This document shows positions 1 through 54,628 of a DNA stretch of 54,635 nt, in pieces (position 1 is the first letter of the stretch; each line of letters opens with the position of its first letter). Below the pieces are notes generated by a model. It was not told the DNA's origin. It made no database searches and saw only the letters and a program-made list of their open reading frames with translations. The stretch is from a virus, in IMG/VR virus record IMGVR_UViG_3300047322_000465, positions 1-54,635 of that record. The stretch is one strand, 5' to 3'. A program made the position numbers and the translations under genes.

Positions 1-126
1 AGAGGCTCACGAAGATGGCACGGAATCAGGGGTTGACCACGCAGCTCAGCGCGATGGTCACACAGCAGATGAGAGACCGGATCGATGCCCTGGAGGCGCT
101 GTACCCGGTCAGCCGCGCGGATGTGG
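1..126. repeat. Terminal direct repeat, left copy
   Basis: Bases 1-126 are identical to 54503-54628, so the window closes into a circle of about 54,502 bp or has direct terminal repeats. The repeat covers the ribosome binding site and first third of the RHH gene. A repeat inside a coding gene suggests assembly overlap or circular permutation more than a packaging end. After 126 bases the right copy diverges for its last 7 bases. Confidence 0.95.
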
Positions 127-374
127 TGCGCGACGCGCTGGAGGCCGGGCTTCCTACGGTGGAGAGCGCGGGGGTCACGGAGATCAGCGACGGGACCATA
201 CTCTCCGGCCAGCTCAGCGTGCTGGTCACCGAGGAGATGAAGGCTCGCATCGACGCGCTGGCGACCGAGGGGCGCGGTGGTGGACGCATCGTGCGCCGGG
301 CGCTGGAAGTGGGGCTAGCGTCGGTGGAGCAGCGCCTCGGCGCGCGGCACCGGGCGACCACTCCCGGGGCATGA
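15..374 (+). CDS. Tandem ribbon-helix-helix DNA-binding regulator
   Basis: This 119-residue protein contains two successive RHH-like units. The first, about residues 8-45, starts with TTQLSAMVTQQMRDRIDAL and is followed by a helix with SRADVVRDALEAGL. The second, about residues 64-102, starts with SGQLSVLVTEEMKARIDAL and is followed by IVRRALEVGL. RHH proteins normally dimerise to make a two-stranded sheet that reads the major groove; a tandem copy can form that unit from one chain, as in F-plasmid TraY. The start has GAGAGG upstream. In the circular map the gene is transcribed from the palindromic promoter at 54466-54483, so it is the leading candidate for the protein that binds the nine palindromes. 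The RHH fold is read from pattern; the target is inferred. Confidence 0.8.
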   Translation: MARNQGLTTQLSAMVTQQMRDRIDALEALYPVSRADVVRDALEAGLPTVESAGVTEISDGTILSGQLSVLVTEEMKARIDALATEGRGGGRIVRRALEVGLASVEQRLGARHRATTPGA

Positions 375-438: not shown

Positions 439-2643
439 GTGGACGATACTACCACGAACAGTACGTACGTCGCCGCGCTGGAATACGTCGAGCGCGGCTG
501 GGCGGTCATCCCGGTACACGGGCTGGCCGACCCCGAGCTGAAGCTGTGCACGTGCGGGCGCCGGGGCTGCGAGAACGTGGGCAAGCACCCGGTGCATACC
601 GGCTGGACCGGCGGTCCCGCCATGTCCGGCGCCGATGCGTACGCCACCTGGGAGGAGGACGGCCCCGACTGGAACATCGGCATCCGCACCGGTGACCCCA
701 GCGGGTTCTTCGTGCTCGACATCGATCCGAAGTCCGGGGGGCCGGGCCAGCTCGCCGAGCTGGAGGCCGTGCACGGGCGCCTGCCGGACACCCGCGTGGT
801 GAGCACCGGCAGTGGCGGCCGGCACTACTACTTCCTCATGCCGGACTTCCCCGTCAGGAACAACGCCCGCAAGCTGGCGGCCGGCATCGACGTGCGGGGA
901 ACCGGCGGGATGGTGGTCGCGCCACCCAGCGTGAGCGGGATCGGCCCGTACGCGCTGCTGGACGAGCTACCCATCGCGCCCGCGCCCGCGTGGCTGCTGG
1001 ACCTGTTGGTGATCCCCGCCGGCATCGAGACCAGCCTCAGCGTGACGGCGGAGGATCTCCCGGAGTACGCGGACCTCGACCGGGCCGACCAGGATCGGCT
1101 GACGCGGTACGCCGAGGCGGTGATCCGCAACGAGGCCGCCGCCTACGCGCAGGCGCCCCCGGGGCGGGGGAACGGCCAGCTCTTCGAGTCCGCGTGCAAC
1201 GTCCTGGAGATCGTCCAGTCGCCGTGGAACGCGCTCGGGGTGCGCGATGCGGTGGCCGCGCTGGAGCAGGCCCGCCACATCCGGGCGCTCCAGCGCGGGG
1301 AGGGCGGCGGCCAGGATGTCGAGGAGTTCCGCAAGACGTTCCAGTCCGCGCAGTCCCAGGTGGTCGGGCAGGGACGCCCGGTGCCGCCGGACCCGCACGA
1401 GGGGTTGATGTTCGATCACCCTACGCAAGGGCTCGCCACCACGGCTGACGACGTGGCGAGCCCGGCCGAGGACGCGGTGAAGGGACTGGCCTTCGACGTG
1501 ACGGCCACGGTGGGCACCCCCAGGACCGCGCTGGAGCGGCTTCGCGGGCGCATGCACACCCGAAGCCAACTGGAGGGAATCGAGCCGCCCACGCCGCTCA
1601 TAGAGGGCGTGATGGACGTCGGCAGCATGATCGTGCTGGCGGGCCAGTTCGGCTCGTTCAAGACGTTCGCCACCATCGGCTGGGCGTGCTCGGTGGCCAC
1701 CGGGGAACCGTGGCTCGGCCATGAGGTGGTGACGCAGGGAACGGTGCTGTACGTGGCCGCCGAGGGCGCGAGCGGAATCAAGTTGCGAGTACGGGCGTGG
1801 GAGGCGCAGACGGGCGTCACGGTGCCCGACGACGCGCTCTACGTGCTGGACGTCCCGGTGAACCTCGGCAACGACGAGCAGTGCTCGGCCATGCTCACCA
1901 TCGCCCGCGAGGTGAACGCCAAGCTGGTCATCTTCGACACCCTGCACCGCTGCACCCCGGGACTCGATGGGAACGACTCCAGCGAGATGGGGCGCATCAC
2001 GATGGTGGCGGACGCGCTGCGTGAGCACGTCAGGGCGGCCACGCTCTTCGTACACCACACCGGCCACGCGGGTACCCGGAGCCGGGGCGCGTCCAGCATC
2101 GAGGACGACGCGGACTGTGTGTGGATCTCGAAGTTGACCGGGGACGACTCGCGCCGGCCGGACAAGGCGCGCGCGCTGGAGCAGCGCAAGACGAAGGACT
2201 CCCCACTCCTGGAGCAGTTCTTCGTCAAGCTCGACCTGATCGACGGCACGGAGTCCGGGGCGCTGATCCTGGTGGACGAGTACGGGGTCGAGATCACCAA
2301 CGGGGCGGCCGGCGCCGATCCGTTCATGGCGGCGAGCGACGGGAGGCGGGCGGACATGGCGGAGATTCAGGCGCGTATCCAGGCCGAGACCAACGACAAC
2401 GCGGGGTTGCTGCTCAACGTCTTCGCGGACACCTTCGCCGAGCACGCCAGCGGGCCGACGAAGGCTGAGGTGAGGGCGGCGTGCAGGGAGAGGTACAGCG
2501 ACCTTCAGGGCTGGAGCGCGAAGGGACTCGTCAGTACCTTCGCCCGGGCGTGGGGAAGGCTGGAGCTGCGCGGGGTCATCGTGGACAACGGCGGTGGCCG
2601 GTGGCTCGTCACGCCTCCGGAAGAGCGGACCAGTACCGAGTAG
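439..2643 (+). CDS. Bifunctional primase-polymerase / AAA helicase replicase
   Basis: This 734-residue protein probably initiates phage replication by combining primer synthesis with DNA unwinding. The N-terminal 190 residues look like an archaeo-eukaryotic Prim-Pol domain: the metal-binding DID in FFVLDIDPKSGG near residue 96, SGGRHYYF near 130, and GIDVRGTGG near 150. A small Cys cluster (CTCGRRGC) lies near residue 35. The second half is a RecA/RepA-like ATPase with Walker A GQFGSFKT near 402-409 and Walker B LVIFDTLHR near 495. The GTG start is supported by AAGGAG at 427-432, six bases upstream. Prim-Pol/helicase fusions are common replicases of actinomycete integrative elements and some phages. 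The gene is followed by a strong terminator and the candidate origin. Confidence 0.88.
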   Translation: MDDTTTNSTYVAALEYVERGWAVIPVHGLADPELKLCTCGRRGCENVGKHPVHTGWTGGPAMSGADAYATWEEDGPDWNIGIRTGDPSGFFVLDIDPKSGGPGQLAELEAVHGRLPDTRVVSTGSGGRHYYFLMPDFPVRNNARKLAAGIDVRGTGGMVVAPPSVSGIGPYALLDELPIAPAPAWLLDLLVIPAGIETSLSVTAEDLPEYADLDRADQDRLTRYAEAVIRNEAAAYAQAPPGRGNGQLFESACNVLEIVQSPWNALGVRDAVAALEQARHIRALQRGEGGGQDVEEFRKTFQSAQSQVVGQGRPVPPDPHEGLMFDHPTQGLATTADDVASPAEDAVKGLAFDVTATVGTPRTALERLRGRMHTRSQLEGIEPPTPLIEGVMDVGSMIVLAGQFGSFKTFATIGWACSVATGEPWLGHEVVTQGTVLYVAAEGASGIKLRVRAWEAQTGVTVPDDALYVLDVPVNLGNDEQCSAMLTIAREVNAKLVIFDTLHRCTPGLDGNDSSEMGRITMVADALREHVRAATLFVHHTGHAGTRSRGASSIEDDADCVWISKLTGDDSRRPDKARALEQRKTKDSPLLEQFFVKLDLIDGTESGALILVDEYGVEITNGAAGADPFMAASDGRRADMAEIQARIQAETNDNAGLLLNVFADTFAEHASGPTKAEVRAACRERYSDLQGWSAKGLVSTFARAWGRLELRGVIVDNGGGRWLVTPPEERTSTE

Positions 2644-2660
2644 GGGCCAGGTAGAAATAT

Positions 2661-2690
2661 AGCCCTCCATCGATAGATGGAGGGCTGTTT
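2661..2690 (+). terminator. Rho-independent terminator after replicase
   Basis: An 11-bp perfect stem (2661-2671 with 2676-2686), GATA loop and following GTTTCT form a canonical terminator 18 bases after the replicase stop. Confidence 0.9.
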
Positions 2691-2728
2691 CTATGGATCT
2701 CAATCTAGTAATCTGCGGGGCTTTTCCC

Positions 2729-2775
2729 CACCCTATATGATCATGGCTGGGGTACGCCACTGATCATATAGGGTG
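2729..2775. repeat. 15-bp perfect inverted repeat
   Basis: CACCCTATATGATCA at 2729-2743 is the exact reverse complement of 2761-2775, separated by 17 bases. It could be a cruciform, a binding site or a primer-synthesis hairpin. It has no T-run of a terminator. Confidence 0.9.
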
Positions 2776-2855
2776 TGTCAAGCCCCCGCAAGTTGATCTT
2801 GCATAAGTGCAGGTCAGGACACAGATGGATAGTCTTTTCATCAGAGTGTCTCAGT

Positions 2856-2921
2856 GTCCGTTTTATGGTGTACTGCTGTCCGTTTTATGGTGTACTGCTG
2901 TCCATTTTGCGGTGTACTCTA
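2856..2921. repeat. Three tandem 22-bp iterons
   Basis: GTCCGTTTTATGGTGTACTG followed by CT occurs identically at 2856-2877 and 2878-2899; a third, diverged copy occupies 2900-2921. The 22-bp period is two helical turns, so bound proteins would line up on one face of the DNA, as in plasmid and phage iteron origins. Confidence 0.9.
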
Positions 2922-2994
2922 CCTGTGATCAGCCCAAAGGTCCCGATACACCCCTACGTTGCCCTAATATGTCCTTATTTAGATCATCGACAGG

Positions 2995-3022
2995 AGTCGA
3001 TCTAACAGGTATATGGTAGGAT
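2995..3022 (+). promoter_or_regulatory. Palindromic operator/promoter for the 3060 operon
   Basis: The 18-bp site CTAACAGGTATATGGTAG lies at 3002-3019 and overlaps a TAGGAT -10 at 3017-3022. The -35 in the shared 16-base spacing is weak; an alternative reading is TCGACA (2987-2992), 17 bases, TATATG (3010-3015). It is one of nine copies of the phage-wide operator and drives the early small-gene operon. Confidence 0.75.
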
Positions 3023-3059: not shown

Positions 3060-3257
3060 ATGAATGAGGACGAAGCGGACGACCTGGACAACAGGATCGT
3101 GAGACTGGAGGAGAAGGTGGTCGAGCTGGAGATGCAGATGCGGGGAGCGGCCGAGTGGTTCGCCGCGCGGGATCGCGAGCGGGAAGAGCGCAACGCGTAC
3201 CTGGCGAAGACGGCCGCCGCCGAGATGGACGCTTACAACGCCTCGGTTGGCTACTGA
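3060..3257 (+). CDS. Small acidic coiled-coil protein
   Basis: This is a 65-residue charged protein with a heptad-like helix (IVRLEEKVVELEMQMRG) that should form a short coiled coil. The ATG at 3060 is chosen over the GTG at 3051 because GAGAGG (3046-3051) would overlap the GTG but is 8 bases from the ATG. It is the first gene after the operator at 3002 and overlaps the next gene at an ATGA. No family is recognised. An early adaptor or host-interaction role is only a guess. Confidence 0.7.
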   Translation: MNEDEADDLDNRIVRLEEKVVELEMQMRGAAEWFAARDREREERNAYLAKTAAAEMDAYNASVGY

Positions 3258-3730
3258 TGACCACCGACGTGGACTACGGCCGCAAGTGGGGAGATCCGGC
3301 GCCGGTCGTACCGCCGCACCCGGAGCCCGAGGTGGTCCGGCGCATCGCGACCCCCGAGGAGACTCCGACCGGCGCACGGCGGCTGATGAAGAAGGCGGCG
3401 GCCACCGGGTGGTCGGTTGTCGCGACATACGCCCGGGGGCACGCCGTGGACAGCTCCGGACACACGAAGGCGCTCACCCACTCACTCGCGGTGCGCCTGA
3501 GATTGCCGGAAGCCCGGTATCGGGCGGTGGCCGTCTGGACGGCTCCGGCCGAGCTGCCGCCGGAAGAGGCCAAGTGGACATCCGGGGACGTGTACGTCTG
3601 GGCCGTCGGCTCGGGTGTACCGGTTCGCGCGGTGCCGCTCCACCCCGGCCGCAAGGACCCTGACGCGCTGAGTCTCGCGGTCTACCTGGTACACCCTGAA
3701 CGGTTGACGATTACGTCGACCGGGTGTTAG
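3257..3730 (+). CDS. Hypothetical protein
   Basis: This 157-residue protein starts at an ATG overlapping the previous stop (ATGA), which implies translational coupling. The middle part (ATGWSVVATYARGHAVDSSG and following) alternates hydrophobic and polar residues like a small beta-sheet domain, and AVWTAPAELPPEEAKWTSGD precedes a VYVWAVGSG strand. No catalytic motif or membrane segment is visible and no family is recognised. Many short genes like this sit near replication genes in actinophages. Confidence 0.7.
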   Translation: MTTDVDYGRKWGDPAPVVPPHPEPEVVRRIATPEETPTGARRLMKKAAATGWSVVATYARGHAVDSSGHTKALTHSLAVRLRLPEARYRAVAVWTAPAELPPEEAKWTSGDVYVWAVGSGVPVRAVPLHPGRKDPDALSLAVYLVHPERLTITSTGC

Positions 3731-4224: not shown

Positions 4225-4757
4225 TGATCACCGCGCTCGACCTCTCGCTCACCGGTACCGGCATCGCGCGGATCGGCACCGTGACCGTGAGCGTCGAGAC
4301 GGTGAGGTGTCCGAAGCTGGTGGGCAACGAACGCCTGCACCTCATCATCGACCGGTGCATCCGTGCCGGCGTGCCCGGTGCTGACCTGTTCGTGATCGAG
4401 GGTCCCGCGTACGGCAAGCAGGGAGGCCAGGCCGGTCACCACGAGCGCGCTGGCCTCTGGTGGCTGGTGGCGCACTCGCTGTGGTGCGCGAACATCCCCT
4501 ACGTGGTCATCACGCCGAGCGCCCGCGCGAAGTACGCCACCGGCAAGGGCAACGCCAGCAAGGCCGAGGTGATGGCCGGCGCGATCAAGCGGTACGGCCA
4601 CCTGGTAGAGCTGAGGGACGACAACCAGTGTGACGCCGTCATCCTCGGGGCGATGGCGGCCGACCACTATGGGGAGACTCTGGCGAAGGTACCCGCGCTC
4701 AATGCGACCGCGCTGGAAAAGGTTGAATGGCCCGAGATGAGAGGATCGAGCACGTGA
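4224..4757 (+). CDS. RuvC-like Holliday junction resolvase
   Basis: This 177-residue protein has the RNase H-like fold signatures of RuvC resolvases: a first-strand Asp in ALDLSLTGTGIA near residue 6, a Glu in FVIEGPAYG near 57, and a C-terminal acidic pair in DDNQCDAVILG near 135. The family cuts four-way junctions made in recombination or at replication forks; in phages it also clears branches before packaging. The ATG overlaps the previous stop (TGATG), and the end overlaps the RNA ligase start. Confidence in the fold is high, in the substrate moderate. Confidence 0.82.
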   Translation: MITALDLSLTGTGIARIGTVTVSVETVRCPKLVGNERLHLIIDRCIRAGVPGADLFVIEGPAYGKQGGQAGHHERAGLWWLVAHSLWCANIPYVVITPSARAKYATGKGNASKAEVMAGAIKRYGHLVELRDDNQCDAVILGAMAADHYGETLAKVPALNATALEKVEWPEMRGSST

Positions 4758-5329
4758 ACAAGATGCCGACAATCTATCTGCGCGACGAAGAGAACAGGCG
4801 GTATGTGACTAACCAGGTCAACCCGGACGCCGCATGGGTGTTCGCCGGTGAGGGGGTCCCGTCCAGGAAGTATGACGGGACCTGTGTTCGCTTCGCCGGC
4901 TATGGCCAGTGGTACGCGCGCCGTGAGGTCAAGCCCGGGAAGCTGGCGCCGCCGAATTTCCGTCTGATCTCCCATGACGAGGTGACCGGCAAGACGATGG
5001 GCTGGGAGCCCATCGAACAGTCCGCGTTCGCGCAGATCTTCGCTGGAGTCGTGGGCAATCGACCGCTCTACGTCCCCGGCCAGACGTACGAGCTGGTCGG
5101 CCCGAAGATCAATGGGAACCCGGAGAAGCTGACCCATCACATCCTGATTGCTCACGGGTACATGTCGCTACCCGACGCCACTGAGCTGGAGTCACTCACC
5201 CCGATCACGTACCCGAGGATCGAGGCGTGGCTGAATGCTCATACCCACTGGGAGGGCATCGTATTCCGTCACGCCGATGGGCGAATGGCGAAGATCAAGG
5301 GGCGCGACTTCCGAGGGACGGCCCGCTGA
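4754..5329 (+). CDS. RNA ligase of the nucleotidyltransferase superfamily
   Basis: This 191-residue protein carries the ligase motif I KYDG at residues 39-42 (Lys39 would be adenylated), an EGIVFR motif IV near residue 170 and a KIKGRDF motif V near 180. That order and the length fit small RNA ligases that seal nicks in RNA, as in tRNA repair after anticodon-nuclease attack. The GTG start at 4754 is preferred because it overlaps the upstream stop (GTGA) and has GAGAGGA 8 bases upstream; an ATG at 4727 is an alternative. The same phage has a tRNA locus at 45143-45420, which fits a repair role. Confidence 0.85.
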   Translation: MNKMPTIYLRDEENRRYVTNQVNPDAAWVFAGEGVPSRKYDGTCVRFAGYGQWYARREVKPGKLAPPNFRLISHDEVTGKTMGWEPIEQSAFAQIFAGVVGNRPLYVPGQTYELVGPKINGNPEKLTHHILIAHGYMSLPDATELESLTPITYPRIEAWLNAHTHWEGIVFRHADGRMAKIKGRDFRGTAR

Positions 5330-9722: not shown

Positions 9723-9753
9723 GAAGCCCCCGGGACCTGCGCTCGGGGGCTTC
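9723..9753. terminator. Bidirectional terminator after lysis genes
   Basis: GAAGCCCCCG (9723-9732) pairs with CGGGGGCTTC (9744-9753) around an 11-base loop. It closes the lysis operon on + and coincides with the stop of the convergent RHH gene on -. Confidence 0.75.
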
Positions 9754-9925
9754 ATGCTGCCTGCGGCCGGTACTCGCCACGCTCGGCGGCGGCCTTCAGT
9801 GCCGCCCGGAGGAGTACCTCCGCCGAGCGCGCGGCGGAGCGTCCGGTTTGCCTGCCGTGCTCCGCCACCTCTGCCATGAGTTCCGGGGGGAGTCGCCACC
9901 CCGCTACCGAGCGCCTGGTCTTCAT
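9752..9925 (-). CDS. Small ribbon-helix-helix regulator
   Basis: This 57-residue protein reads like a single RHH unit: basic start MKTRRSVAGWRLPPELMAEV, then a turn and a second helix with SAARSAEVLLRAALKAA. The start at 9925 lacks a ribosome binding site. A GTG at 9955 extends it by 10 residues and would lie inside the inverted repeat at 9942-9970. It is the only - strand gene between the lysis and transfer blocks. The adjacent 12-bp inverted repeat sits in the rightward promoter of the transfer block, so this is the likely repressor of that block and perhaps of itself. The RHH assignment is moderate and the target is inferred. Confidence 0.72.
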   Translation of the reverse strand: MKTRRSVAGWRLPPELMAEVAEHGRQTGRSAARSAEVLLRAALKAAAERGEYRPQAA

Positions 9926-9941
9926 GCGCGGGAGGATACAG

Positions 9942-9970
9942 CCTCTGGCTTGCACTACGCAAGCCAGAGG
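9942..9970. promoter_or_regulatory. 12-bp perfect inverted repeat, likely operator
   Basis: CCTCTGGCTTGC (9942-9953) is the reverse complement of 9959-9970, with a 5-base spacer. It overlaps the -35 and spacer of the rightward promoter at 9950-9978 and the 5' end of the - strand RHH gene, a typical position for a self-regulating operator. Confidence 0.7.
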
Positions 9971-13696: not shown

Positions 13697-13831
13697 ATGA
13701 GGGGCTTTTGCTCCATCTGCGGTAAATCTATCTCTATCATCAGGTCCGGGGTAATTCGCTCTCACGGCGGTGGATGGCTGATGACGTGCGAGGGCAGCGG
13801 CAAGCCGCCGAAGGAGGTCACGACGTCATGA
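13697..13831 (+). CDS. 44-residue zinc-ribbon-like protein
   Basis: This short protein begins MRGFCSICGKSISI: a CxxC pair at residues 5-8, a His near 23 and a Cys near 31 could bind zinc. GAGAGGAGAGG precedes the ATG. Its stop overlaps the ATG of the TraB-like gene (ATGA), so the two are translationally coupled. It may be a small regulator or accessory factor of the translocase. Confidence 0.65.
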   Translation: MRGFCSICGKSISIIRSGVIRSHGGGWLMTCEGSGKPPKEVTTS

Positions 13832-15747
13832 TCAAGCAGACCCACAGCTTCGCTGCGCAGGTCGCGCCCCACGCTGCTGTGGGTCTGCTGGTCGTGGCCG
13901 CCGCCGCCACCCACGCCGCCGCCAGCGCGAGCGGCCACGAGATGCAGGTCGCACTGTGGGTAGCCGGTACCGCCTTCGTGCTCGCCGTGCTGGTCGGCAT
14001 GAAGCGCGGCGCGCGGATCGAGTGCCGCAAGGCGCGCGCCCGGCTTCAGCTTCTCCTGGTCGGCTCGGCGGCGTGGCTCGGCGCGGTGACCGGTGCCGGC
14101 CTGTCCTGGGGTGCGGTCGAGATCCTCGTGCTGATGGTCGGCGCGCTCTCGCTGCACTGGTGGCGGATGAAGCGCATCCCGAACCGCGCGGCGGCCGTCG
14201 CCGAGCCGGTAGGCGACTACGCCGCGCGCTGGCGCGAGTCCATCGGTTGCCCCGGGGGCGCGGCGCCCGGCTCGCGGCTCGTGAAGCCCGAGACGATCGA
14301 GTCGGGCGTGCGCTTCGACCTCCGTCTCGTCCCCGGCAAGCAGGACGCGAGCACGATCACCGGGGCCATGGAGAAGATCCGGGGCGGCCTCGGGCTGTTC
14401 GGGGATCAGGAGCTGCTGATCGAGCCGCACCCCACGCTGCCGGAGCCGCACCAGATCGCGACCGTGGTCACGAAGTCGCCCATCCGTGCCGAGATCCTGT
14501 GGCCCGGCCCGAGCACTTTCGACAGCGCGACCGGCACGGTGGCGCTCGGCCCGTTCGCCGACGGTATCGGTGTCGGTCGCTGGCGGGTATACAGCAAGTC
14601 CCGGCTCTACGGTGGCTACCTTCAGGGCGGCACCGACTCGGGCAAGTCGCGGACCGCAGATTCGATCATGGTGTCCATCGCCGCGAGCCGGACGCACCCC
14701 ACCGTCGTGCAGTACGCGGACGGTCAGGGCGGCGCGTCCTCGGCCATGCTCTCGAAGTACGCCGATCGGGTGGCGAAGAACCCGGCGGAGTGCCTGTCGA
14801 TGCTTCAGGACGCCGTCAAGGTCATGGAGATGCGGCAGGACGAGAACGACCTGGAGGGCTGGATCGGCTTCACGCCGCGCATCGACCGGCCTGGCCTGCT
14901 GATCATGATTGACGAGTGCCACCTCCTGCTGGTCTTCCCCGAGATCCAGGAAGCCGTGGCCGCCATCGCCAAGGGCGGGGGCAAGGTGGGTGTGGCGTGC
15001 GTGCTGGCCAGCCAGACCCCGCTTCTGAGCGCGTTCGGCGGTTCCGGGAAGAACAACTTCGCTGACGACATCCGGTCGAACCTGCTCATGGGCAACGGCC
15101 TCGTGCTGCGCTCGAAGTCCAAGGACGTGAGCCAGGTGTTCGGGGTATCGGTCAACCCAAGCGCCTTCCCGGCCACCCCGGGATATGCCTACCTCGTGGA
15201 CTCCATCGGGCGCAGCGCGCCGCTGCGCTCGTACCACTTCACCGACCAGCAGGCGGCGGCCTACCTTCCCGGCAGCGAGTGGCTGGAGCTGGACGCGGGC
15301 GCGGCGAATGCTGCCGGGCCGACCTACCTCAACCGACGTGCGATCCGCGACCGCGCCGCCGCTGCCAAGCGCGAGCGGGTCGAGGCGCTGAAGGCCGGGC
15401 GCCCGCTGCCGAAGGCCGCACCCGCGACCGCGCTGGCCGCGCCGCTCCCGGCAGTGACCGCCTTCCCGGTATGGGTCTCGCCGCCGAGGCCGGTTTCCCC
15501 CATCGCGCCGGCCGGCCCCCGGGTAACCGACATCCATCACCGCGCCACCGAAGCGCTGGCCGGCGGCGCGGTGCGTGCCGGCTTCACGATGCCCGGGTGG
15601 ATGGCGCGCGAGCTGGGATGCTCCGAGCGCTGGGCGCACGAGACGCTGAAGGACCTCGTGGCGCTCGGCGTGCTGGAGCGGCCGGACGGCACGCCCCAGG
15701 GGCGGTACTACCCCACCGGAAAGACTCTTTCGAGAAAGGTCGCCTGA
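13828..15747 (+). CDS. FtsK/SpoIIIE-family DNA translocase, TraB-like
   Basis: This 639-residue protein has two or three N-terminal membrane spans (about residues 12-35, 38-57 and 75-100), a RecA-like motor with Walker A GGTDSGKSR near 267-275 and Walker B LLIMIDECH near 356, a sensor-like ACVLASQTP segment near 390, and a C-terminal winged-helix-like domain (MARELGCSERWAHETLKDL) near 590-615. The order membrane-motor-winged helix is that of FtsK and of TraB, which moves double-stranded plasmid DNA between mycelial cells by reading short repeats. The surrounding small membrane genes favour TraB. A role in segregation or DNA positioning is the alternative. AAGGAGG lies about 10 bases upstream. 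Confidence 0.85.
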   Translation: MIKQTHSFAAQVAPHAAVGLLVVAAAATHAAASASGHEMQVALWVAGTAFVLAVLVGMKRGARIECRKARARLQLLLVGSAAWLGAVTGAGLSWGAVEILVLMVGALSLHWWRMKRIPNRAAAVAEPVGDYAARWRESIGCPGGAAPGSRLVKPETIESGVRFDLRLVPGKQDASTITGAMEKIRGGLGLFGDQELLIEPHPTLPEPHQIATVVTKSPIRAEILWPGPSTFDSATGTVALGPFADGIGVGRWRVYSKSRLYGGYLQGGTDSGKSRTADSIMVSIAASRTHPTVVQYADGQGGASSAMLSKYADRVAKNPAECLSMLQDAVKVMEMRQDENDLEGWIGFTPRIDRPGLLIMIDECHLLLVFPEIQEAVAAIAKGGGKVGVACVLASQTPLLSAFGGSGKNNFADDIRSNLLMGNGLVLRSKSKDVSQVFGVSVNPSAFPATPGYAYLVDSIGRSAPLRSYHFTDQQAAAYLPGSEWLELDAGAANAAGPTYLNRRAIRDRAAAAKRERVEALKAGRPLPKAAPATALAAPLPAVTAFPVWVSPPRPVSPIAPAGPRVTDIHHRATEALAGGAVRAGFTMPGWMARELGCSERWAHETLKDLVALGVLERPDGTPQGRYYPTGKTLSRKVA

Positions 15748-16205
15748 TGAAAGCGCCCCGCCACCTTCCCGACGTCGCGCACGCGCGCCCCGGACGTACC
15801 GCCGTCTACCGGTTCTACGACCGGCGCGGCGTGCTGCTCTACGTCGGAATCACCAACTCGCCGAGGCACCGTTTCGAGCAGCACGCCGCCGACAAGGAAT
15901 GGTGGCCGGCGGTGACGGGGCGGACCATCGAGTGGTGTGCGAGTCGCCGCGCCGCGCTGGAAGCGGAGTGGTTCGCGATCAAGAATGAGCGCCCGATCCA
16001 CAACAGGCAGCACAACGATCACTACCGGGGAGGCAGCTACGTCCCGGCACGCGGCATCGCGCGGCCGGCGTTCACGATGGTCGTCAGCGGAGTTCTGCTC
16101 GGCGCGGCGTGGACAGGGCACCTGGAGCTGAGCTGGATCATGCAGGCGGTCTGCGTGCTCGCATTCCTGGCCTCCTCCCAGTTGATACTGAGCCGCGCGG
16201 AGTAG
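15747..16205 (+). CDS. GIY-YIG nuclease fused to membrane spans
   Basis: This 152-residue protein starts at an ATG overlapping the TraB-like stop. Residues 18-90 fit a GIY-YIG nuclease: VYRFYD and LLYVGIT for the two core strands, RHRFEQH with the conserved Arg and His, and EAEWFAIKNERPIHN with the catalytic Glu and terminal Asn. Two hydrophobic segments follow (FTMVVSGVLLGAAWTGHL; IMQAVCVLAFLASSQLIL), which is unusual for this nuclease family. Membrane placement next to the translocase suggests DNA processing at the membrane or cutting of incoming DNA. It ends the transfer-like block. Confidence 0.8.
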   Translation: MKAPRHLPDVAHARPGRTAVYRFYDRRGVLLYVGITNSPRHRFEQHAADKEWWPAVTGRTIEWCASRRAALEAEWFAIKNERPIHNRQHNDHYRGGSYVPARGIARPAFTMVVSGVLLGAAWTGHLELSWIMQAVCVLAFLASSQLILSRAE

Positions 16206-42151: not shown

Positions 42152-42841
42152 TCACCGTGCGCCACCGAGACGCGCCTGGTAGGCCATGCCCTGGAAGCGG
42201 CCGCCGGCCATGAAGAGCGCCGGGGCGCCGTCGGCCACGCTCGCCGTGCTCATCTGCATCACGCCGTGGCGCTCCACCTTGCCGAAGGCCGCGAGCACCT
42301 TCGGGGAGAACGAGTAGCTGGACGGCGAGACGCTAGCTACCCCCATCAGACTGTCGATCACCGCGTGGATGTCGACCTCGGCCGGATCTCCCGCCTCCAC
42401 GATCGGCGTACCCGACCCGGTGACGTAGAGCTTCAACGCGGGCCAGAGATCCAGTGCGGGCGGCCGCTCGATCTTCAACCGGTAGGAGTTGCTGAGGACG
42501 TTCGGGATCACGTCCAGCGTGAGCGGGGCGTAGGCCAGCTTGTCGGGGGAGAGCTTGAACGTGCTCACGATGCCCTTCACCTGCGCCACCGGAAGGCGCA
42601 GGCTGAACCCGACCTGGTCATGTTCGACGCCGTAGTCCAGCTCGTCAGAGTCTTCGGTGTCCATATCCCACCAGGTGCGCGCGGCCATCGAACGGCTGGT
42701 CGCCGAGACGAACAGGCGCTCCTGCACGGGCAGCCACTCGACGCGCACGCAGGTGTGCGCCACGTCGTCCTTGTCGGTGGCGACGAACGGCAGCGCGTCG
42801 CCGAGCATGCCGAGCAGCTCTCTGGTAGAGAGGGTGATCAT
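42152..42841 (-). CDS. DNA polymerase III sliding clamp (DnaN)-like protein
   Basis: This 229-residue protein starts ITLSTRELLGMLGDALPFVA, then RLFVSATSRSMAART near residue 45 and FSPKVLAAFGKVER near 187, the pattern of the first and last domains of beta clamps. At 229 residues it is much shorter than cellular clamps. It would tether a polymerase to DNA; no phage polymerase was found, so it may recruit the host enzyme. The start overlaps the WhiB stop. Confidence 0.68.
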   Translation of the reverse strand: MITLSTRELLGMLGDALPFVATDKDDVAHTCVRVEWLPVQERLFVSATSRSMAARTWWDMDTEDSDELDYGVEHDQVGFSLRLPVAQVKGIVSTFKLSPDKLAYAPLTLDVIPNVLSNSYRLKIERPPALDLWPALKLYVTGSGTPIVEAGDPAEVDIHAVIDSLMGVASVSPSSYSFSPKVLAAFGKVERHGVMQMSTASVADGAPALFMAGGRFQGMAYQARLGGAR

Positions 42842-43173
42842 TTGTCCTCCTGGTGGTGCCGACGGATAGTCGGCTTCGTGGTGAGAATGAGCGCGGCACG
42901 CTCATCCTCGTCGGTTCCTCCCCAGACGCCCCAGATGATGACGGGACTGCCGAGCGCCCATGCGAGGCACTCGCGCCGAACGGGGCACTGCGCACAGATG
43001 CTCTTCGCGGCGGCGGTACGGTCGCGAGCGTGGATGCCGCGCCCGACCGGGAAGAACAGCTCCGGGTCGAGACCTCGACATCGCGCGTCGGCGCGCCACG
43101 TCTCCAGCCGATCAGCGTCGCTGTCGCGCGGGCGCAAGCTCGGGCGCGTCAGGTTTGCGGTCTTCGCCATCAT
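42838..43173 (-). CDS. WhiB-family transcription factor
   Basis: This 111-residue protein has the four WhiB cysteines (one in DARCRGLDPELFF, then CAQCPVRREC), the GVWGG turn and a basic tail (KPTIRRHHQEDK). WhiB proteins carry a [4Fe-4S] cluster and act with sigma factors; phage copies can block host WhiB or superinfection. ATG at 43173 overlaps the upstream stop; 43170 is the alternative. Actinobacteria-specific family. Confidence 0.9.
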   Translation of the reverse strand: MMAKTANLTRPSLRPRDSDADRLETWRADARCRGLDPELFFPVGRGIHARDRTAAAKSICAQCPVRRECLAWALGSPVIIWGVWGGTDEDERAALILTTKPTIRRHHQEDK

Positions 43174-44501: not shown

Positions 44502-45038
44502 CTACGCGCCGAACGGGCTCACCGGCTGCTTGCTGGCGAGGTAGTCCCGTGCGATCTGCGCGTCCTCGGGCGCGAACTTCTCCAGCACCCACGCGAACTG
44601 AATCGGGGCGCTACCCGGACGCCACGCGTCGAGCGCGGCCTCCAGCGCCTCCGTGGTCGGGTACTTCCCGCTCTTGGCGTCCGCACCGATCGGCACCCGG
44701 CGCAGGGTACCGAGGATCGCGGGAATCTTGTCCCGTACGGCCTTCTCGGCGGCGGCCACGATCGGCTTCTGCGACCAGTACATCGAGTCGAAGGACTCGC
44801 CGGCCCGCAGCCCGGTGAGCACCACCGTGTCGGCGGATAGCCGGGTGGCCATCACGCCCGGAGCCTGCTGGTACGCCTGCACCTGCTCGAATTTAACGGG
44901 CGTGAGGAGGAGCAGGCAGCCGTTCAACTCGGCCGGCTTCGGGAAGTCGCCGCCGCCGCCGGACGGCTGGCCGAACGGATCGGTGGGGTTGACGCTGGGG
45001 CTGCCGTCGGCCTGCGCGAACGGGTCGAGATTCGTCAT
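44502..45038 (-). CDS. SSB-like recombination/replication protein
   Basis: This 178-residue protein has a flexible N-terminus with NPTDPFGQPSGGGGDFPKP, a core with GCLLLLTPVKFEQVQAYQQA and SADTVVLTGLRAGESFDSMY, and ends KQPVSPFGA. It resembles a family of actinophage proteins near exonucleases, possibly ssDNA binding. The DPFGQP segment recurs at the start of the exonuclease at 46462. The start uses the GATGGGA/ATGACGAAT pattern shared with 44129. Confidence 0.65.
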   Translation of the reverse strand: MTNLDPFAQADGSPSVNPTDPFGQPSGGGGDFPKPAELNGCLLLLTPVKFEQVQAYQQAPGVMATRLSADTVVLTGLRAGESFDSMYWSQKPIVAAAEKAVRDKIPAILGTLRRVPIGADAKSGKYPTTEALEAALDAWRPGSAPIQFAWVLEKFAPEDAQIARDYLASKQPVSPFGA

Positions 45039-45104: not shown

Positions 45105-45142
45105 TTGCCTGCGGGGCAAACAGACCCTGTGAGGGGAGCTGC

Positions 45143-45213
45143 GTGCGCGGACGGGATTCGAACCCGCATCTCTGGCTTTGTGGGCCAACGCTAATCCGTT
45201 GAGCTACCGCACT
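45143..45213 (-). tRNA. tRNA, anticodon uncertain (reads ACA)
   Basis: On - this folds as a cloverleaf: acceptor AGTGCGG with CCGCGCA (first pair mismatched), D-arm GCTC...TAGC, anticodon stem TTGGC/GCCAG, T-arm GCGGG-TTCGAAT-CCCGT. The 7-base anticodon loop is CCACAAA, giving ACA (nominally Cys) with C33 instead of the usual T33, so the identity is uncertain. The CCA end is not encoded. Confidence 0.72.
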
Positions 45214-45322
45214 CCAGCGCTTACGTGCGCCACACGCACCGTAGTCGGTGAACCGAATCTGCATCCGGCCTACGCGTTGTCCCGGGGTCTATTCCGGTGC
45301 CCGTCACGTAGCGCCTTCGCTC

Positions 45323-45458: not shown

Positions 45459-45486
45459 AGCCTAACACCTACCTACTAGCTACGCA
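45459..45486 (-). promoter_or_regulatory. Operator/promoter for the tRNA locus
   Basis: CTAACACCTACCTACTAG (45462-45479), a diverged copy of the operator, overlaps the stop of the exonuclease gene. The - strand -10 is TAGGCT (45464-45459). Confidence 0.65.
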
Positions 45487-46462: not shown

Positions 46463-48288
46463 GCTGTCGCTCCGATGCTCTGGGTGGCGAAGTACGCCGC
46501 GATGGGGTCAATCCTCTTGCTGGCCATCTGGCCGTCGATCAGGGCGGACACGTCGCCCTTGCTGGCGCCCTCAGGTACCGCGATGCCGCGCGAGCGGCAC
46601 AGGTCGAGCTGCTTCTCGCTGGGGGCCGTCCTGCGCCACCCCTTCGCCTTGTCCAGCGTCATCGCGGCGTTGAGTCCGCCCATGTCGCTGGCGAGATCCT
46701 CGCCCCACGTGAACGCGAGGTCGAGCGGGAGTCCCCGGTGCTCGCTGACGTCGCCCCGCTTGCCGTCGCGGGCGTCGTAGGCCGATTTGCAGCACCACAC
46801 CACGTCATAGGTGCCGGGGTCAGCCTCGGGGCCGGTCGCCGGCACCACGAACACGTACACCGACCCGGCGCCGGTTCCCGCGCTCAGGAAGTACGTGCCG
46901 CCGGCCGTCTTCAACCACAGCCGACTGGACGCGGTGGCGAGCGGGTCGAAGTCCACCACTACGGTGGGGCCGAAGTGGGTCAGCTTGACGCGGCCGCCCT
47001 CGTCCGCGAAACCCTCGTCCAGCGCGCCGAGGTCGAAGGCGTCCTCCGCCTCGATCAGGCCCTGCCCGTCCTGGAGGCGAATCTCGCGGTCGGAGAGGTC
47101 CACCAGCGAGGCCAGCCCATGCACCGCGCTGGCGCCGACCACGTCGAGAATCAGGCAGTCCTGACCCTCGCGCGACTGCGCGGGATCGGGACGCAGGCCC
47201 CGACCCACCATCTGCTGGTACAGCCCGGCCGAGCGGGTGGGGCGCGCGATCACGATGCACGAGACCTTCGGACTGTCGAAGCCCTCCGTGAGCACCATGC
47301 AGTTGCTGATCACCTGCGTCTCGCCGGACTCCAGCCGGCCGAGGATCGCGCGCCGCTCCTCCTGCGCGAGGGCGCCGTGCACCACCTCGGCGGTGATGCC
47401 CTGCGCGCCGAGCGCCGCCGCGAAGCCGTACGCGGAGTCGACGGTGGGCGCGAAGAGGATGCCGGGGCGCTCGGCGGCGTGCTCGACGTACGCCTTCGCC
47501 ACGATCTCTGGCGCCAGCGATGCCTCAAGTGCCTCTTCGAGTGCGCCGGCCTGGTAGTCCCCGGCGGTCTTCTTCACGGCCGCGAGGTCGAAATCCGCGA
47601 TCTCGATCCGCTTGCCTCGGGGTTCCAGCAGGTAGCCGCGCCGGATCATGAACGATATGTCTTTCTTGTACGACACCTTCTCCCAGATGTCGGACAGCTT
47701 GCCCTTGTCCCCGCGCACCAGCGTGGCGGTGAAGCCGGCGGTGCGCGTGGTGCGCTCGGTACCCCGATTGAGGCCGGTACCGAGGCAGTCGGAGCAGGAT
47801 TCGCCGGACCATGCGCCCGCACCCTTACCCCCACAGGTAGAACAGCGGCGCCCCATGCATCCGTAGTGCCCCAGGATGTCGCGGTACGTCTTCGCGGTCG
47901 CGTGGTGGCACTCGTCCACGATCACGAGACCCACATTCCGGATCATCGAGCGGCGCGCGGCGTTGCGCAGGGACTGGACGGACGCCACGATCACGGTCGC
48001 GGTGACCTCGTTGCGCGCGGCCTTGACGATGCCCACCTTGAGGTGGGGCGCCACGGCGTGCAGCTTCTTCGCGGCCTGCGTCACCAGCTCGTCGGTGTGC
48101 GCGAGAATCAGCACCCGCTTGCCGCCGTTCGCGGTCACGTACCGGCTGGACAGGTGCGAGAACACCACCGTCTTACCGGCGCCGGTCGGCAGCACGGCGG
48201 CGAGGCGCGAGGCGCCACCCTCCCAGTCGCGCATGAGCGCATCGATGGCAGCTTCCTGGTAGTCGCGGGGCTTGAGGAGGGCGCTCAC
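46459..48288 (-). CDS. SF2 DNA helicase with DnaJ-type zinc insertion
   Basis: This 609-residue helicase has Walker A LPTGAGKT near residue 35, DECHH motif II near 125, TAT motif III, and motif VI (QMVGRGLRPDP) near 385. Between motifs II and III is CSTCGGKG and CSDCLGTG, which is CxxCxGxG zinc binding as in DnaJ. The C-terminal half has an uncommon beta-rich region (VVVDFDPLATASSRLWLKTA). The GTG start overlaps the upstream stop. It probably acts in recombination with the exonuclease. Confidence 0.88.
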   Translation of the reverse strand: MSALLKPRDYQEAAIDALMRDWEGGASRLAAVLPTGAGKTVVFSHLSSRYVTANGGKRVLILAHTDELVTQAAKKLHAVAPHLKVGIVKAARNEVTATVIVASVQSLRNAARRSMIRNVGLVIVDECHHATAKTYRDILGHYGCMGRRCSTCGGKGAGAWSGESCSDCLGTGLNRGTERTTRTAGFTATLVRGDKGKLSDIWEKVSYKKDISFMIRRGYLLEPRGKRIEIADFDLAAVKKTAGDYQAGALEEALEASLAPEIVAKAYVEHAAERPGILFAPTVDSAYGFAAALGAQGITAEVVHGALAQEERRAILGRLESGETQVISNCMVLTEGFDSPKVSCIVIARPTRSAGLYQQMVGRGLRPDPAQSREGQDCLILDVVGASAVHGLASLVDLSDREIRLQDGQGLIEAEDAFDLGALDEGFADEGGRVKLTHFGPTVVVDFDPLATASSRLWLKTAGGTYFLSAGTGAGSVYVFVVPATGPEADPGTYDVVWCCKSAYDARDGKRGDVSEHRGLPLDLAFTWGEDLASDMGGLNAAMTLDKAKGWRRTAPSEKQLDLCRSRGIAVPEGASKGDVSALIDGQMASKRIDPIAAYFATQSIGATA

Positions 48289-48533
48289 GCCTTCCACTCC
48301 TCGATGACCTGCGCCGAGCGCGGGAACTCGACGGTTACGGCGTCGCCGTGCGCGTCCAGCTCCAGGGTCAACCCGTACGCCTCGACGGTCTCCGTGACCA
48401 CCCAAGAGTGGTCAACCTCGACCACCTTCACGTTGACCATGACCATCTTCTCGACGTAGTCCAGGATCGCGTCACGCTTCTTGTCGGACAGCTTGCCCGG
48501 CAGGGAGTTCAGGAACTCCTCGAACTCGTCCAT
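48285..48533 (-). CDS. Hypothetical acidic protein
   Basis: This 82-residue protein has a helical start (EFEEFLNSLPGKLSDKKRDA) and a beta-rich end (VEAYGLTLELDAHGDAVTVE). The start at 48533 is chosen because GAGAGGAG gives 6-base spacing. It is the first gene of the operon with the helicase and exonuclease. Confidence 0.65.
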   Translation of the reverse strand: MDEFEEFLNSLPGKLSDKKRDAILDYVEKMVMVNVKVVEVDHSWVVTETVEAYGLTLELDAHGDAVTVEFPRSAQVIEEWKA

Positions 48534-48596: not shown

Positions 48597-48624
48597 AGTC
48601 TAACAGATACCTAGTAGGTGTCAA
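48597..48624 (-). promoter_or_regulatory. Operator/promoter for the helicase-exonuclease operon
   Basis: On -, TTGACA (48624-48619), 16 bases and TAGACT (48602-48597) enclose the palindrome CTAACAGATACCTAGTAG (48600-48617). Confidence 0.9.
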
Positions 48625-48664: not shown

Positions 48665-48847
48665 CTAGTAGCCGTACATGTACCGGGCGCGGTCCTGAGC
48701 GCGCTCGAAGCTGGGGGACCAGACGATTACCATGAGCTGGAAGTGGGGGTCGGCGAAGTGGTTATCGCGCCGGGTCTCCGCAGCCAGGAATCCGGGGTGC
48801 GGCCCGCTGACAACCGTTCCGCGCGGGGCGATGACGTAGAATCCCAT
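48665..48847 (-). CDS. Small hypothetical protein
   Basis: This 60-residue protein (GFYVIAPRGTVVSGPHPGFL; RAQDRARYMYGY at the end) has GAGGAGAT about 7 bases upstream of its ATG. It forms a single-gene cassette between an operator and a terminator, a position often filled by host-interaction or anti-defence proteins, but nothing in the sequence shows a function. Confidence 0.65.
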   Translation of the reverse strand: MGFYVIAPRGTVVSGPHPGFLAAETRRDNHFADPHFQLMVIVWSPSFERAQDRARYMYGY

Positions 48848-48886: not shown

Positions 48887-48914
48887 AGCCTACCAGGTAC
48901 CTGTTAGGTCCCAC
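48887..48914 (-). promoter_or_regulatory. Operator/promoter for the 48665 gene
   Basis: CTACCAGGTACCTGTTAG (48890-48907) with -10 TAGGCT (48892-48887) on -. The -35 is degenerate (GTGGGA), so basal activity may be low. Confidence 0.75.
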
Positions 48915-49438: not shown

Positions 49439-49737
49439 GCCTTGGTGCTCCTGACTGCCAGGTAGGGAACGCCCGGGTGTCCGCAGGAGTACGCGGTGTA
49501 CGGGTCTTCCGGCGCGGTGTAGTTGCCGTGCGGGTTGCACCGGTCGCAGACCTGGACTCGGAGCACGTCAGCGGCCTTGCGCAACGCGGCGCGCGCCGCC
49601 CAGATCACCTGACCGTCGAAGTACTCGGCAGTCTCGGTTGCCGACTCCAGAGCGTCGTAGGCGGCCTGGAGTTTGGCAATGGTGGCGCGGTAGCGGGCCA
49701 CCGTCATGGTGGCGTTCTTCACCCTCGTGATCTTCAC
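49435..49737 (-). CDS. Hypothetical helical protein with CxxC and CxH
   Basis: This 100-residue protein has a helix (TMTVARYRATIAKLQAAYDA), CDRC near residue 64 and CGH near 84, which together could bind zinc. The GTG start overlaps the previous stop. Confidence 0.65.
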   Translation of the reverse strand: MKITRVKNATMTVARYRATIAKLQAAYDALESATETAEYFDGQVIWAARAALRKAADVLRVQVCDRCNPHGNYTAPEDPYTAYSCGHPGVPYLAVRSTKA

Positions 49738-49934
49738 GCGAACATCTCCTCAAACTGCTGGTCAGCGATGCGCTGACGCTGGATGGAACCCTTGCGGGTA
49801 AGGCCGCCGCCGGCGCCGAGGTACCCGAGCGACTTCAACTCCGCGATCACCTCGCGCGGCGTGGCCGGTCCGCAGGTGGAGCCCTGACGCATCGTGCCGA
49901 TGTTCATCAGGGCGGTGCGGGCGGCGGTGCTCAT
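49734..49934 (-). CDS. Small winged-helix-like protein
   Basis: This 66-residue protein (TPREVIAELKSLGYLGAGGG; LTRKGSIQRQRIADQ) has the helix-wing pattern of a small winged helix. It overlaps the next upstream gene by an ATGA and looks like a divergent relative of it. Confidence 0.62.
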   Translation of the reverse strand: MSTAARTALMNIGTMRQGSTCGPATPREVIAELKSLGYLGAGGGLTRKGSIQRQRIADQQFEEMFA

Positions 49935-50173
49935 CGCTGACCAGCCGCCGCGCTCGCGGTCCACTCCGCCAGTGCGGCCTTCCCCGTGTCCGTCGCGCGC
50001 CACCCGAGGGCGTTGTCCAGGGGCTCGATCAGGCCCGCGCGCTGGATGGCGTTGAAGCCGTTGGCGTAGCGCGCCTCGTGAATACGCCGGATGGCGGCGA
50101 GGGTCTCGGTGGTGGGCTGCGCGACGTGCGCCAGGATGGCAGCGGTACTCCGACTCAGGTCCATCTTGATCAT
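49931..50173 (-). CDS. Small winged-helix-like protein
   Basis: This 80-residue protein (ATLAA-type helix, then GFNAIQRAGLIEPLDNALGW and RATDTGKAALAEW) fits a winged-helix fold and opens the operon. It may regulate its own operon or phage genes. Assignment is by pattern. Confidence 0.65.
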   Translation of the reverse strand: MIKMDLSRSTAAILAHVAQPTTETLAAIRRIHEARYANGFNAIQRAGLIEPLDNALGWRATDTGKAALAEWTASAAAGQR

Positions 50174-50213: not shown

Positions 50214-50241
50214 AGTCTACCAGGTACCTGTTAGGTGTCAA
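50214..50241 (-). promoter_or_regulatory. Operator/promoter for the 50173-48920 operon
   Basis: TTGACA (50241-50236), 16 bases and TAGACT (50219-50214) on - enclose CTACCAGGTACCTGTTAG (50217-50234). Confidence 0.9.
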
Positions 50242-50286: not shown

Positions 50287-50520
50287 TCAGATCTCATCTA
50301 CCAGGGTGATCATGGTGTTGCGAGGGAGGGTGAACTTGAACATCCGCCCCGCCTCGTTCCGTGCGAACAGGTCGAAGGTGTTGAAGTCCGCGAGATCACG
50401 GGAGTAGGCGAAGTTGTCATCCACGCAGTGGACGGTGAGAACGTCGCCGCCGCGCTCGATCAGCGTTCCCTCGGCCAGGAACTGGACGGCGGTGGCGGTG
50501 AACTCGATCGTGGTGTTCAT
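50287..50520 (-). CDS. Hypothetical beta-rich protein
   Basis: This 77-residue protein (TIEFTATAVQFLAEGTLIER; FKFTLPRNTMITLVDEI) is a compact beta-rich domain with GAGGGAG upstream. It is a one-gene cassette between operator and terminator. No function is recognised. Confidence 0.68.
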   Translation of the reverse strand: MNTTIEFTATAVQFLAEGTLIERGGDVLTVHCVDDNFAYSRDLADFNTFDLFARNEAGRMFKFTLPRNTMITLVDEI

Positions 50521-50547: not shown

Positions 50548-50578
50548 AGTCTAACAGATACCTGTTAGGTACTGTCAA
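50548..50578 (-). promoter_or_regulatory. Operator/promoter with a 19-base spacer
   Basis: CTAACAGATACCTGTTAG (50551-50568), -10 TAGACT (50553-50548) and TTGACA (50578-50573). Three additional bases lengthen the spacer to 19, so it may be weaker. Confidence 0.85.
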
Positions 50579-50858: not shown

Positions 50859-51235
50859 TTCTTCCACTCCCTCATGCCGGCCGCGCTCAGCCTGATCAGT
50901 GCCTTGCCGATGATCTCCAGCCGGTCCTCGACGGCCGGCACCTCCATGGCGCGCTTGCCCTGCTCGATCCGCTCCAGCGCGTCCTCCCAGTCCGTCATGA
51001 GCTGGCGAATCTTCAGGACGCCGACGGCGTAGAGCGAACGCAGGTTCTCCAGCTTGTCCCGCTCAGCGGCGAGCGCGTGGTACCCCTCGTGGATGTCGAT
51101 GCACAGCGTGCACCCGGTGTCCTCGTGCCGCGCGTGCGCCAGCTCCACCTCATCCGGCGGCGGGAAGTTCATGTTCTTCCGCGACCTGATGACGTACTCC
51201 TCGTGCGTGACCTGCTCACCGCCCCAGGTCGGCAT
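50855..51235 (-). CDS. Hypothetical protein with zinc-like motif
   Basis: This 126-residue protein has GCTLCIDIHEGYH near residue 42 (CxxC plus two His) and long charged helices (LMTDWEDALERIEQGKRAME). Its ATG overlaps the previous stop (TAATG). No family is recognised. Confidence 0.68.
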   Translation of the reverse strand: MPTWGGEQVTHEEYVIRSRKNMNFPPPDEVELAHARHEDTGCTLCIDIHEGYHALAAERDKLENLRSLYAVGVLKIRQLMTDWEDALERIEQGKRAMEVPAVEDRLEIIGKALIRLSAAGMREWKK

Positions 51236-52143
51236 TACTTCCCCGTCTCGATCAGTGAGGCGATGAACTCGGCGGTGCGCTCGGGGTACGGCAGCTCGCT
51301 CAGGTCCAGGTTGCGCACCATGTACGCGATCCGTTGGCGCTCGGCGGCGCGCTCGGTGTTCACCAGGTGCTCGACCTCACCCTTCGTGAGCAGGGACCTT
51401 TGCTGCATCTCGCCGATGGTGCGACCGGCCTGGATGACGCCCCCGATCCGCTCGCGTTCCTCGGCGCGCGCCTGATCGAGAAGCTGGGCAACCTCGTCCA
51501 ACGTGAGGGAGGTGGCCATGTTCACGTCGCGCGGGGGCGGGAACACTCGCTCGGCGGCGAGCGCCTGCTCGCGGTTCGCCCGCTCGACGGCAGCCAACTC
51601 CTCCCGGAGTGCCTTGTCGCTGGTGCCATGGCGGAGCGCGGCGGAGATGAACGGAAGCGTGTGCACCTGGTCGGCACCCCGGACGACGTCGCCGGACTGA
51701 CGCACGAAGGTCAGCATGGCGTCCACCTGCTCTGCGTTCGGCATCTCCTCCAGATGCAGCAATTCGCCTACCTCGTCATGGGTCAACTTCACCAGCGGGC
51801 GCAGGAAGCTGCGCACCTCGTCCACCACGCCCCACATCTGCTCCGGGCGTACACCGTCGCGCATGTGCACCTGGTCGGCCTGCTGTTGGACCTCGCCGTG
51901 CACCTCGTCCTGGAGAAGCTCCACCATGTTCGTCTTGCCACCGCTGGCGTTGTGCCCGAGAAGGTTTCCCCACAGCCCGTTGATGCGCTCGGCGATGACC
52001 TTCTTCATGTCCGCGAGAAGCTCGACGGTCCTGGCATCGAGTTCGGGAACACTCTCCGGGTTCTTCGCGGCCGGGATCTCATGCGCGTTCGGTCCACGGT
52101 CCCACCTGTTGGCGCCCTTCAGGGGCTCGTTCTCGCTGTCCAT
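51235..52143 (-). CDS. Large hypothetical helical protein
   Basis: This 302-residue protein is mostly helical. It includes LLADMKKVIAERINGLWGNL near 50, ELLQDEVHGEVQQQADQVHM near 80 and LTLDEVAQLLDQARAEERER near 220. No enzyme motif is seen; the length and coiled regions suggest a scaffold or interaction protein. GAGGAGAACGAG precedes the ATG. First gene of its operon. Confidence 0.68.
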   Translation of the reverse strand: MDSENEPLKGANRWDRGPNAHEIPAAKNPESVPELDARTVELLADMKKVIAERINGLWGNLLGHNASGGKTNMVELLQDEVHGEVQQQADQVHMRDGVRPEQMWGVVDEVRSFLRPLVKLTHDEVGELLHLEEMPNAEQVDAMLTFVRQSGDVVRGADQVHTLPFISAALRHGTSDKALREELAAVERANREQALAAERVFPPPRDVNMATSLTLDEVAQLLDQARAEERERIGGVIQAGRTIGEMQQRSLLTKGEVEHLVNTERAAERQRIAYMVRNLDLSELPYPERTAEFIASLIETGK

Positions 52144-52170: not shown

Positions 52171-52198
52171 AGTCTATCAGGTACCTGTTAGGTGTCAA
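52171..52198 (-). promoter_or_regulatory. Operator/promoter for the 52143 operon
   Basis: TTGACA (52198-52193), 16 bases and TAGACT (52176-52171) enclose CTATCAGGTACCTGTTAG (52174-52191). Confidence 0.9.
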
Positions 52199-53089: not shown

Positions 53090-53117
53090 AGCCTAACAGC
53101 TACCTGTTAGGTGTCAA
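53090..53117 (-). promoter_or_regulatory. Operator/promoter for the DUF6011-like gene
   Basis: TTGACA (53117-53112), 16 bases and TAGGCT (53095-53090) enclose CTAACAGCTACCTGTTAG (53093-53110). Confidence 0.9.
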
Positions 53118-54456: not shown

Positions 54457-54458
54457 GC

Positions 54459-54490
54459 CGACAGCCTAACAGGTACATGGTAGAGTTGCA
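54459..54490. promoter_or_regulatory. Divergent operator between RHH regulator and - arm
   Basis: CTAACAGGTACATGGTAG (54466-54483) lies between two -10 elements: TAGGCT on - (54468-54463) for the 54456 gene, and TAGAGT on + (54481-54486) for the RHH gene across the circle junction. Neither -35 is strong. One bound regulator could control both directions, including its own gene. Confidence 0.8.
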
Positions 54491-54502: not shown

Positions 54503-54628
54503 AGAGGCTCACGAAGATGGCACGGAATCAGGGGTTGACCACGCAGCTCAGCGCGATGGTCACACAGCAGATGAGAGACCGGATCGATGCCCTGGAGGCG
54601 CTGTACCCGGTCAGCCGCGCGGATGTGG
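54503..54628. repeat. Terminal direct repeat, right copy
   Basis: Identical to 1-126. The following seven bases (ACCATCG) do not match the continuation of the left copy (TGCGCGA), which is typical of noise at a contig end. Confidence 0.95.

Follow-up and report, generated by a model that had tools for sequence, protein, structure and literature searches.

The window analysed here, a stretch of 54,635 nt, is a single IMG/VR virus record (G000), which we compared with four related IMG/VR contigs (G001-G004). It begins with a gene encoding a candidate regulator with two RHH units, and the genes that bear on its role are as follows.

15-374 (+): tandem RHH candidate regulator, 119 aa; N unit at approximately residues 7-52, C unit at approximately residues 63-115
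439-2643 (+): Prim-Pol and AAA_25 primase/helicase; follows the RHH gene as the next gene, both here and in the related phages
9752-9925 (-): second RHH gene, single unit, 57 aa, with its own 29-bp inverted repeat at 9942-9970
42838-43173 (-): WhiB-family protein (PF02467, E 3e-23); present in G001 and G004, with no G003 relative
53923-54456 (-): first gene of the minus arm, divergent from the RHH gene; 177 aa, of unknown function, conserved in G001, G002 and G004
54517-54627 (+): repeated start of the gene at 15-374, within the 126-bp identical end overlap of the circular contig

The last 133 bases of the window open with an identical 126-bp copy of positions 1-126 (54503-54628) and finish with seven stray bases. 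This overlap closes the contig as a circle, so that gene 15-374 and a palindrome at 54466-54483 become adjacent; the presence of separate genes at the two ends could thus be ruled out. End overlaps also mark G003 and G004 as circular, and in G001 and G002 the sequence runs uninterrupted across the junction, with the palindrome directly 5' of the RHH gene. Four of the five phages are fairly closely related to one another. G003 is the most divergent, and a tblastn search at E <1e-5 finds relatives of only nine window genes there. Between 8376 and 50520, the window and G001 have two blocks of proteins with 95-100% identity, at approximately 8.4-19.2 kb (with exceptions) and 42.2-50.5 kb, against roughly 60-90% over most of the remainder, a patchiness that points to recent recombination of these two phages. 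Just six window genes, the RHH gene among them, have relatives in all four other phages.

Some features are more local. Genes for an FtsK/SpoIIIE-like protein and then a GIY-YIG nuclease (13828-16205, plus strand) lie between the amidase (lysis) and portal genes, and tblastn detected neither in the Actinoplanes phage phiAsp2. An RNA-ligase-like gene (4754-5329, plus strand; PF17720, E 2e-11), with no relative in G001-G004, is perhaps a recent insertion beside RuvC. The second RHH gene has relatives in G001, G002 and G004, and the inverted repeat 5' of it (CCTCTGGCTTGCACTACGCAAGCCAGAGG) recurs in G001 and G002; neither gene nor repeat was found in G003. Judged from these sequences, it looks like a separate local autoregulator. 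The initial annotation had considered 9942-9970 as an alternative target of the tandem RHH protein; this repeat fronts a different, single-domain RHH gene.

A predicted single-chain RHH fold

Two RHH-like units some 56 residues apart had been proposed for the 119-aa protein, and the sequence bears this out: the N half (residues 7-50) and C half (65-107) are 50% identical (E 9e-9), and the predicted strands begin at residues 7 and 63, exactly 56 apart. The predicted secondary structure runs beta-alpha-alpha twice (E7-16, H17-29, H34-52; E63-72, H73-83, H89-115). Structure prediction, which the initial annotation had suggested as a check, gave an RHH fold: an AlphaFold2 model built with five orthologous sequences had a pLDDT of 80 and a pTM of 0.70. 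When this model was compared with the PDB using VIA-align, the list was headed by six entries for F-plasmid TraY (Z 10.9-11.1; 2.6 A over 99-101 residues), followed by DndE (Z 8.3-9.6), permuted single-chain Arc (1u9p, Z 6.5) and others from approximately 5 down. The whole predicted chain superposes on the TraY monomer over those 99-101 residues, in agreement with the TraY-like single-chain architecture already suspected.

Sequence similarity to known families is weaker. Against PF01402 (RHH_1; cut-off 20.5 bits), the G001 orthologue scores 23.6, the window protein 17.5 and the three other orthologues 18-19; weak profile matches to RelB and plasmid copy-control proteins were also seen, and PDB sequence searches with the whole protein or a half-domain profile returned nothing significant. 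A chance open reading frame is ruled out by the orthologues, the conserved position and the signature of purifying selection in comparison with G001 (dN 0.24, dS 0.64). On the strength of the model, the 15-374 product is a single-chain RHH DNA-binding protein whose two units are predicted to fold together like the usual RHH dimer.

The G003 protein, in contrast to the tandem form, has one unit (82 aa) beside the same operator consensus, and this unit is equally distant from the N and C halves of the window protein (42-50%). The two-unit form has therefore replaced, or been replaced by, a one-unit form with the operator unchanged. F TraY is described in a cryo-EM study of the relaxosome as a monomer whose one chain contains the complete RHH dimer fold, whereas R1 TraY has one RHH per chain (PMC12117103), a pair that parallels the window and G003 proteins. 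One- and two-unit forms working on one operator would provide a natural test of fusing an RHH dimer into a single chain, which could reveal effects on affinity, concentration dependence and half-site preference.

Palindromes within promoter spacers

The 18-bp palindrome CTAACAGGTACCTGTTAG occurs at eight window sites with at most three mismatches, against none expected from 100 shuffles, and a ninth, weak site at 45462 has four mismatches. These putative operators are listed below.

3002-3019 (+): CTAACAGGTATATGGTAG; promoter 5' of the rightward genes from 3051, lacking a TTGACA -35
45462-45479 (-): weak site; promoter TTGCGT-17-TAGGCT, 5' of a tRNA-Cys-like sequence (45141-45214) and gene 44502-45038
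48600-48617 (-): promoter TTGACA-16-TAGACT; gene 48285-48533 and on
48890-48907 (-): promoter TTGTGG-18-TAGGCT; gene 48665-48847
50217-50234 (-): promoter TTGACA-16-TAGACT; genes 49931-50173 and on
50551-50568 (-): promoter TTGACA-19-TAGACT; gene 50287-50520
52174-52191 (-): promoter TTGACA-16-TAGACT; genes 51235-52143 and on
53093-53110 (-): promoter TTGACA-16-TAGGCT; genes 52527-53045 and on
54466-54483 (no strand): CTAACAGGTACATGGTAG; separates the RHH gene (+) from the divergent gene (-), with a -10-like hexamer on each side

Across the five phages there are 43 such sites (39 distinct). The weak site keeps its position in G001, G002 and G004, and the 3002 variant recurs in G002 at 13119. 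All nine window palindromes lie within a promoter spacer and overlap the -10 element. An independent promoter scan recovered three of them (48600, 50217 and 52174), with a mean of 0.8 promoters expected from shuffles. The right half, CTGNTAG, is an extended -10 in one orientation of each site (the orientation step used to build the site table favours T at the last -10 position, making that column partly circular), and in most leftward promoters it is preceded by a TTGACA-like -35 at a spacing of 16-19 bp. The left half is dispensable for the promoter, yet strongly conserved, with positions 0, 1 and 5 at 97-100%. Conservation of both half-sites is the mark of a bound protein, and placement exactly inside a strong promoter is the arrangement of a repressor site.

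The site at 54466-54483 ends 33 bp 5' of the RHH gene ATG (counted to its second copy). On the other side, the minus-arm ATG is approximately 10 bp away, so a leaderless transcript is possible. The arrangement of two-sided -10-like hexamers with a close divergent ATG (54456-54486) recurs in G001, G002 and G003. The earlier proposal of a gene driven by a palindrome-bearing promoter and divergent from the minus arm thus fits the circular map, in which this site joins both across the junction, and the operator just 5' of the RHH gene in the window and its relatives points to the autoregulation also proposed there. The regulator and the Prim-Pol/helicase are the first two genes of the unit, which links regulation with the start of replication. 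Directly after the Prim-Pol/helicase gene and before the 3002 operator, positions 2644-3001 are AT-rich (GC 0.48 versus 0.68), with three 22-bp direct repeats at 2855-2918, a three-repeat layout found again in G001 and G002, and an inverted repeat near 2742-2777; this stretch is a probable replication origin with iterons.

We consider it likely, from the sequence comparisons made here, that the tandem RHH protein binds the nine promoter palindromes and acts as an autoregulator and occluding repressor, most probably with a timing or homeostatic function in lytic growth. The best-placed alternative is a dual regulator resembling AvtR of Acidianus filamentous virus 6 (AFV6), which both activates and represses (PMC5569661): the strong leftward promoters would be repressed and the weak -35 promoters, at 3002 and the protein's own gene, activated, giving an early-to-late switch. 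Neither of the rightward promoters, at 3002 and 54466, has a good -35, and both carry the variant palindrome CTAACAGGTAYATGGTAG, which makes activation there a live alternative; the 3002 form is also present in G002. Nearly all sites, however, overlap the -10 in one and the same register, which favours occlusion, and the G001 site 5' of the rightward genes is degenerate (32487, four mismatches). We therefore regard dual regulation as rather unlikely, and occluding repression as the better account of these promoters.

Distribution of the candidate regulator and its putative operator

We scanned 2.9 million IMG/VR viral contigs once for the operator and once for the RHH protein. The operator scan yielded three contigs and the protein scan the same three plus a fourth; on inspection, the gene and operator co-occur without exception, with all four other contigs carrying both. 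The operator is just 5' of the RHH gene wherever the promoter was read (window and G001-G004; in G004, operator at 51694 and gene start at 51660). G003 keeps both despite sharing relatives of only nine window genes. Conversely, phiAsp2 shares structural genes with the window, at 64% identity for the terminase, 57% for the portal and 53% for the capsid, but lacks a relative of the RHH protein and, even with five mismatches allowed, any operator. The operator thus tracks the RHH gene and not the structural genes. Since four of the five phages are closely related, these are not five independent events, and the independent contrast comes mainly from G003 and phiAsp2. This comparative evidence supports the suggestion in the initial annotation that the RHH protein regulates the other eight sites as well as its own.

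Neither the exact operator (searched as one pattern) nor a relative of the RHH protein was found in 84,980 bacterial and archaeal genomes. Among 72,556 plasmid records there was no convincing RHH relative, the matches being at chance level. A named-phage collection yielded no relative, its weak Aeromonas, Yersinia and Nocardia matches likewise being at chance level.

These searches bear on a second alternative, in which the protein is the immunity repressor of a temperate or plasmid-like phage and keeps all nine promoters silent while the circular genome lies dormant. Dispersed operators with an autoregulated repressor do resemble lysogenic repressor regulons, and the window, G003 and G004 are circular by end overlap, although circularly permuted lytic phages likewise give circular contigs. 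No tyrosine recombinase (PF00589), serine recombinase (PF00239) or AAA_31-type ParA (PF13614) was detected in G000, G001, G003 or G004, which counts against the immunity role that had been put forward earlier, and prophages would be expected to appear in the bacterial and plasmid collections just described. We consider an immunity function improbable; the missing integrase and ParA genes, together with the lack of relatives in bacterial genomes, make lytic timing the likelier role.

It is more doubtful still that another phage or host protein reads the palindromes, with the tandem RHH protein otherwise employed. The phage candidates are all encoded in the window: the WhiB protein, a true family match; winged-helix-like open reading frames at 49931-50173 and 49734-49934; and the second RHH protein. 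None of them has a relative in G003, though G003 keeps the operator, and the second RHH gene has its own inverted repeat. We rejected these candidates accordingly, and a host regulator as well, given the absence of the exact operator from the genomes searched. Of the six genes conserved in all five phages, the RHH gene alone is recognisable as a sequence-specific regulator; the other five are formal candidate readers, including two (53121-53474 and 3257-3730) whose function is unknown. A non-transcriptional role as a relaxosome-accessory, partition or antitoxin RHH protein, with coincidental or structural palindromes, recalls the relaxosome TraY structures and the weak RelB and copy-control matches, but is very improbable: the sites are in promoters and unclustered, and the neighbourhood of the RHH gene, which is followed by the primase, has no recognisable relaxase, ParA or toxin gene. 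A scan covering part of the gene content showed no relaxase or T4SS.

A proposed mode of regulation and its precedents

The predicted fold, duplication, sites, promoter overlap and co-occurrence in five phages were computed here, and from them we infer binding, stoichiometry, repression and timing as follows. Two tandem RHH molecules would occupy each 18-bp palindrome, one on each 7-bp half-site, with half-site centres 11 bp apart. As the palindrome fills the spacer of host-type promoters (TTGACA-16/19-TAGRCT) and overlaps the extended -10, the bound protein should block RNA polymerase. Binding at 54466 would keep the regulator's own gene and the divergent one in check, and binding at the eight remaining sites would reduce expression of the minus-arm operons and from the promoter that precedes the rightward arm. 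Its most likely role would be in lytic growth, as a repressor with a timing or homeostatic function. On the present comparisons, the RHH protein very probably controls its own gene and most non-structural phage genes.

The nearest functional precedent is AvtR, which has its tandem RHH in a single chain and binds as a monomer; it is autoregulatory, has eight potential genomic sites and protects approximately 100 nt, presumably by oligomerising along the DNA (PMC5569661). The window protein resembles it as a predicted viral single-chain tandem RHH with multiple putative sites and apparent autoregulation, although no sequence relation between the two was detected. AvtR belongs to an archaeal filamentous virus, whereas the window represents a tailed phage in which each site is a separate 18-bp palindrome within a sigma-type promoter spacer. 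F TraY is likewise a tandem RHH monomer and a close structural match to the predicted model (Z 11), but it is a relaxosome component acting at oriT, is approximately 10% identical to the window protein and lacks phage-wide promoter sites. Among tailed phages, Arc and Mnt of phage P22 are RHH repressors that act on promoter operators, as proposed here, but have one RHH per chain and local operators without a dispersed regulon. The stoperators of cluster A mycobacteriophages offer a different likeness: one repressor (L5 gp71) with many dispersed sites in an actinophage genome. L5 gp71 is, however, an HTH protein of temperate phages whose asymmetric 13-bp sites are mostly outside promoters, in contrast to an RHH protein with promoter palindromes.

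Among tailed phages the protein can fairly be described as an uncommon type of repressor, but this needs qualifying for viruses at large, as AvtR is already known (PMC5569661). Tandem-RHH-like proteins are also predicted in archaeal viruses and tailed phages. The viral tandem-RHH regulator is therefore a known kind, seen here in tailed actinophage-like genomes. More tentatively, these phages might represent a family of tailed phages whose early-to-late timing is set by a single RHH master regulator acting through one 18-bp palindrome in the extended -10 and spacer. Within this family the regulator would have changed between a single-unit protein, presumably homodimeric, and a fused chain of two units as the operator code stayed constant; such a regulator may also activate the two rightward promoters. 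A regulator, a likely operator and a regulon can now be proposed for actinophage-like viruses in which the RHH protein has no relative in the named-phage collection searched, and the compact, spacer-embedded palindrome could become a repressible promoter system for GC-rich actinomycetes.
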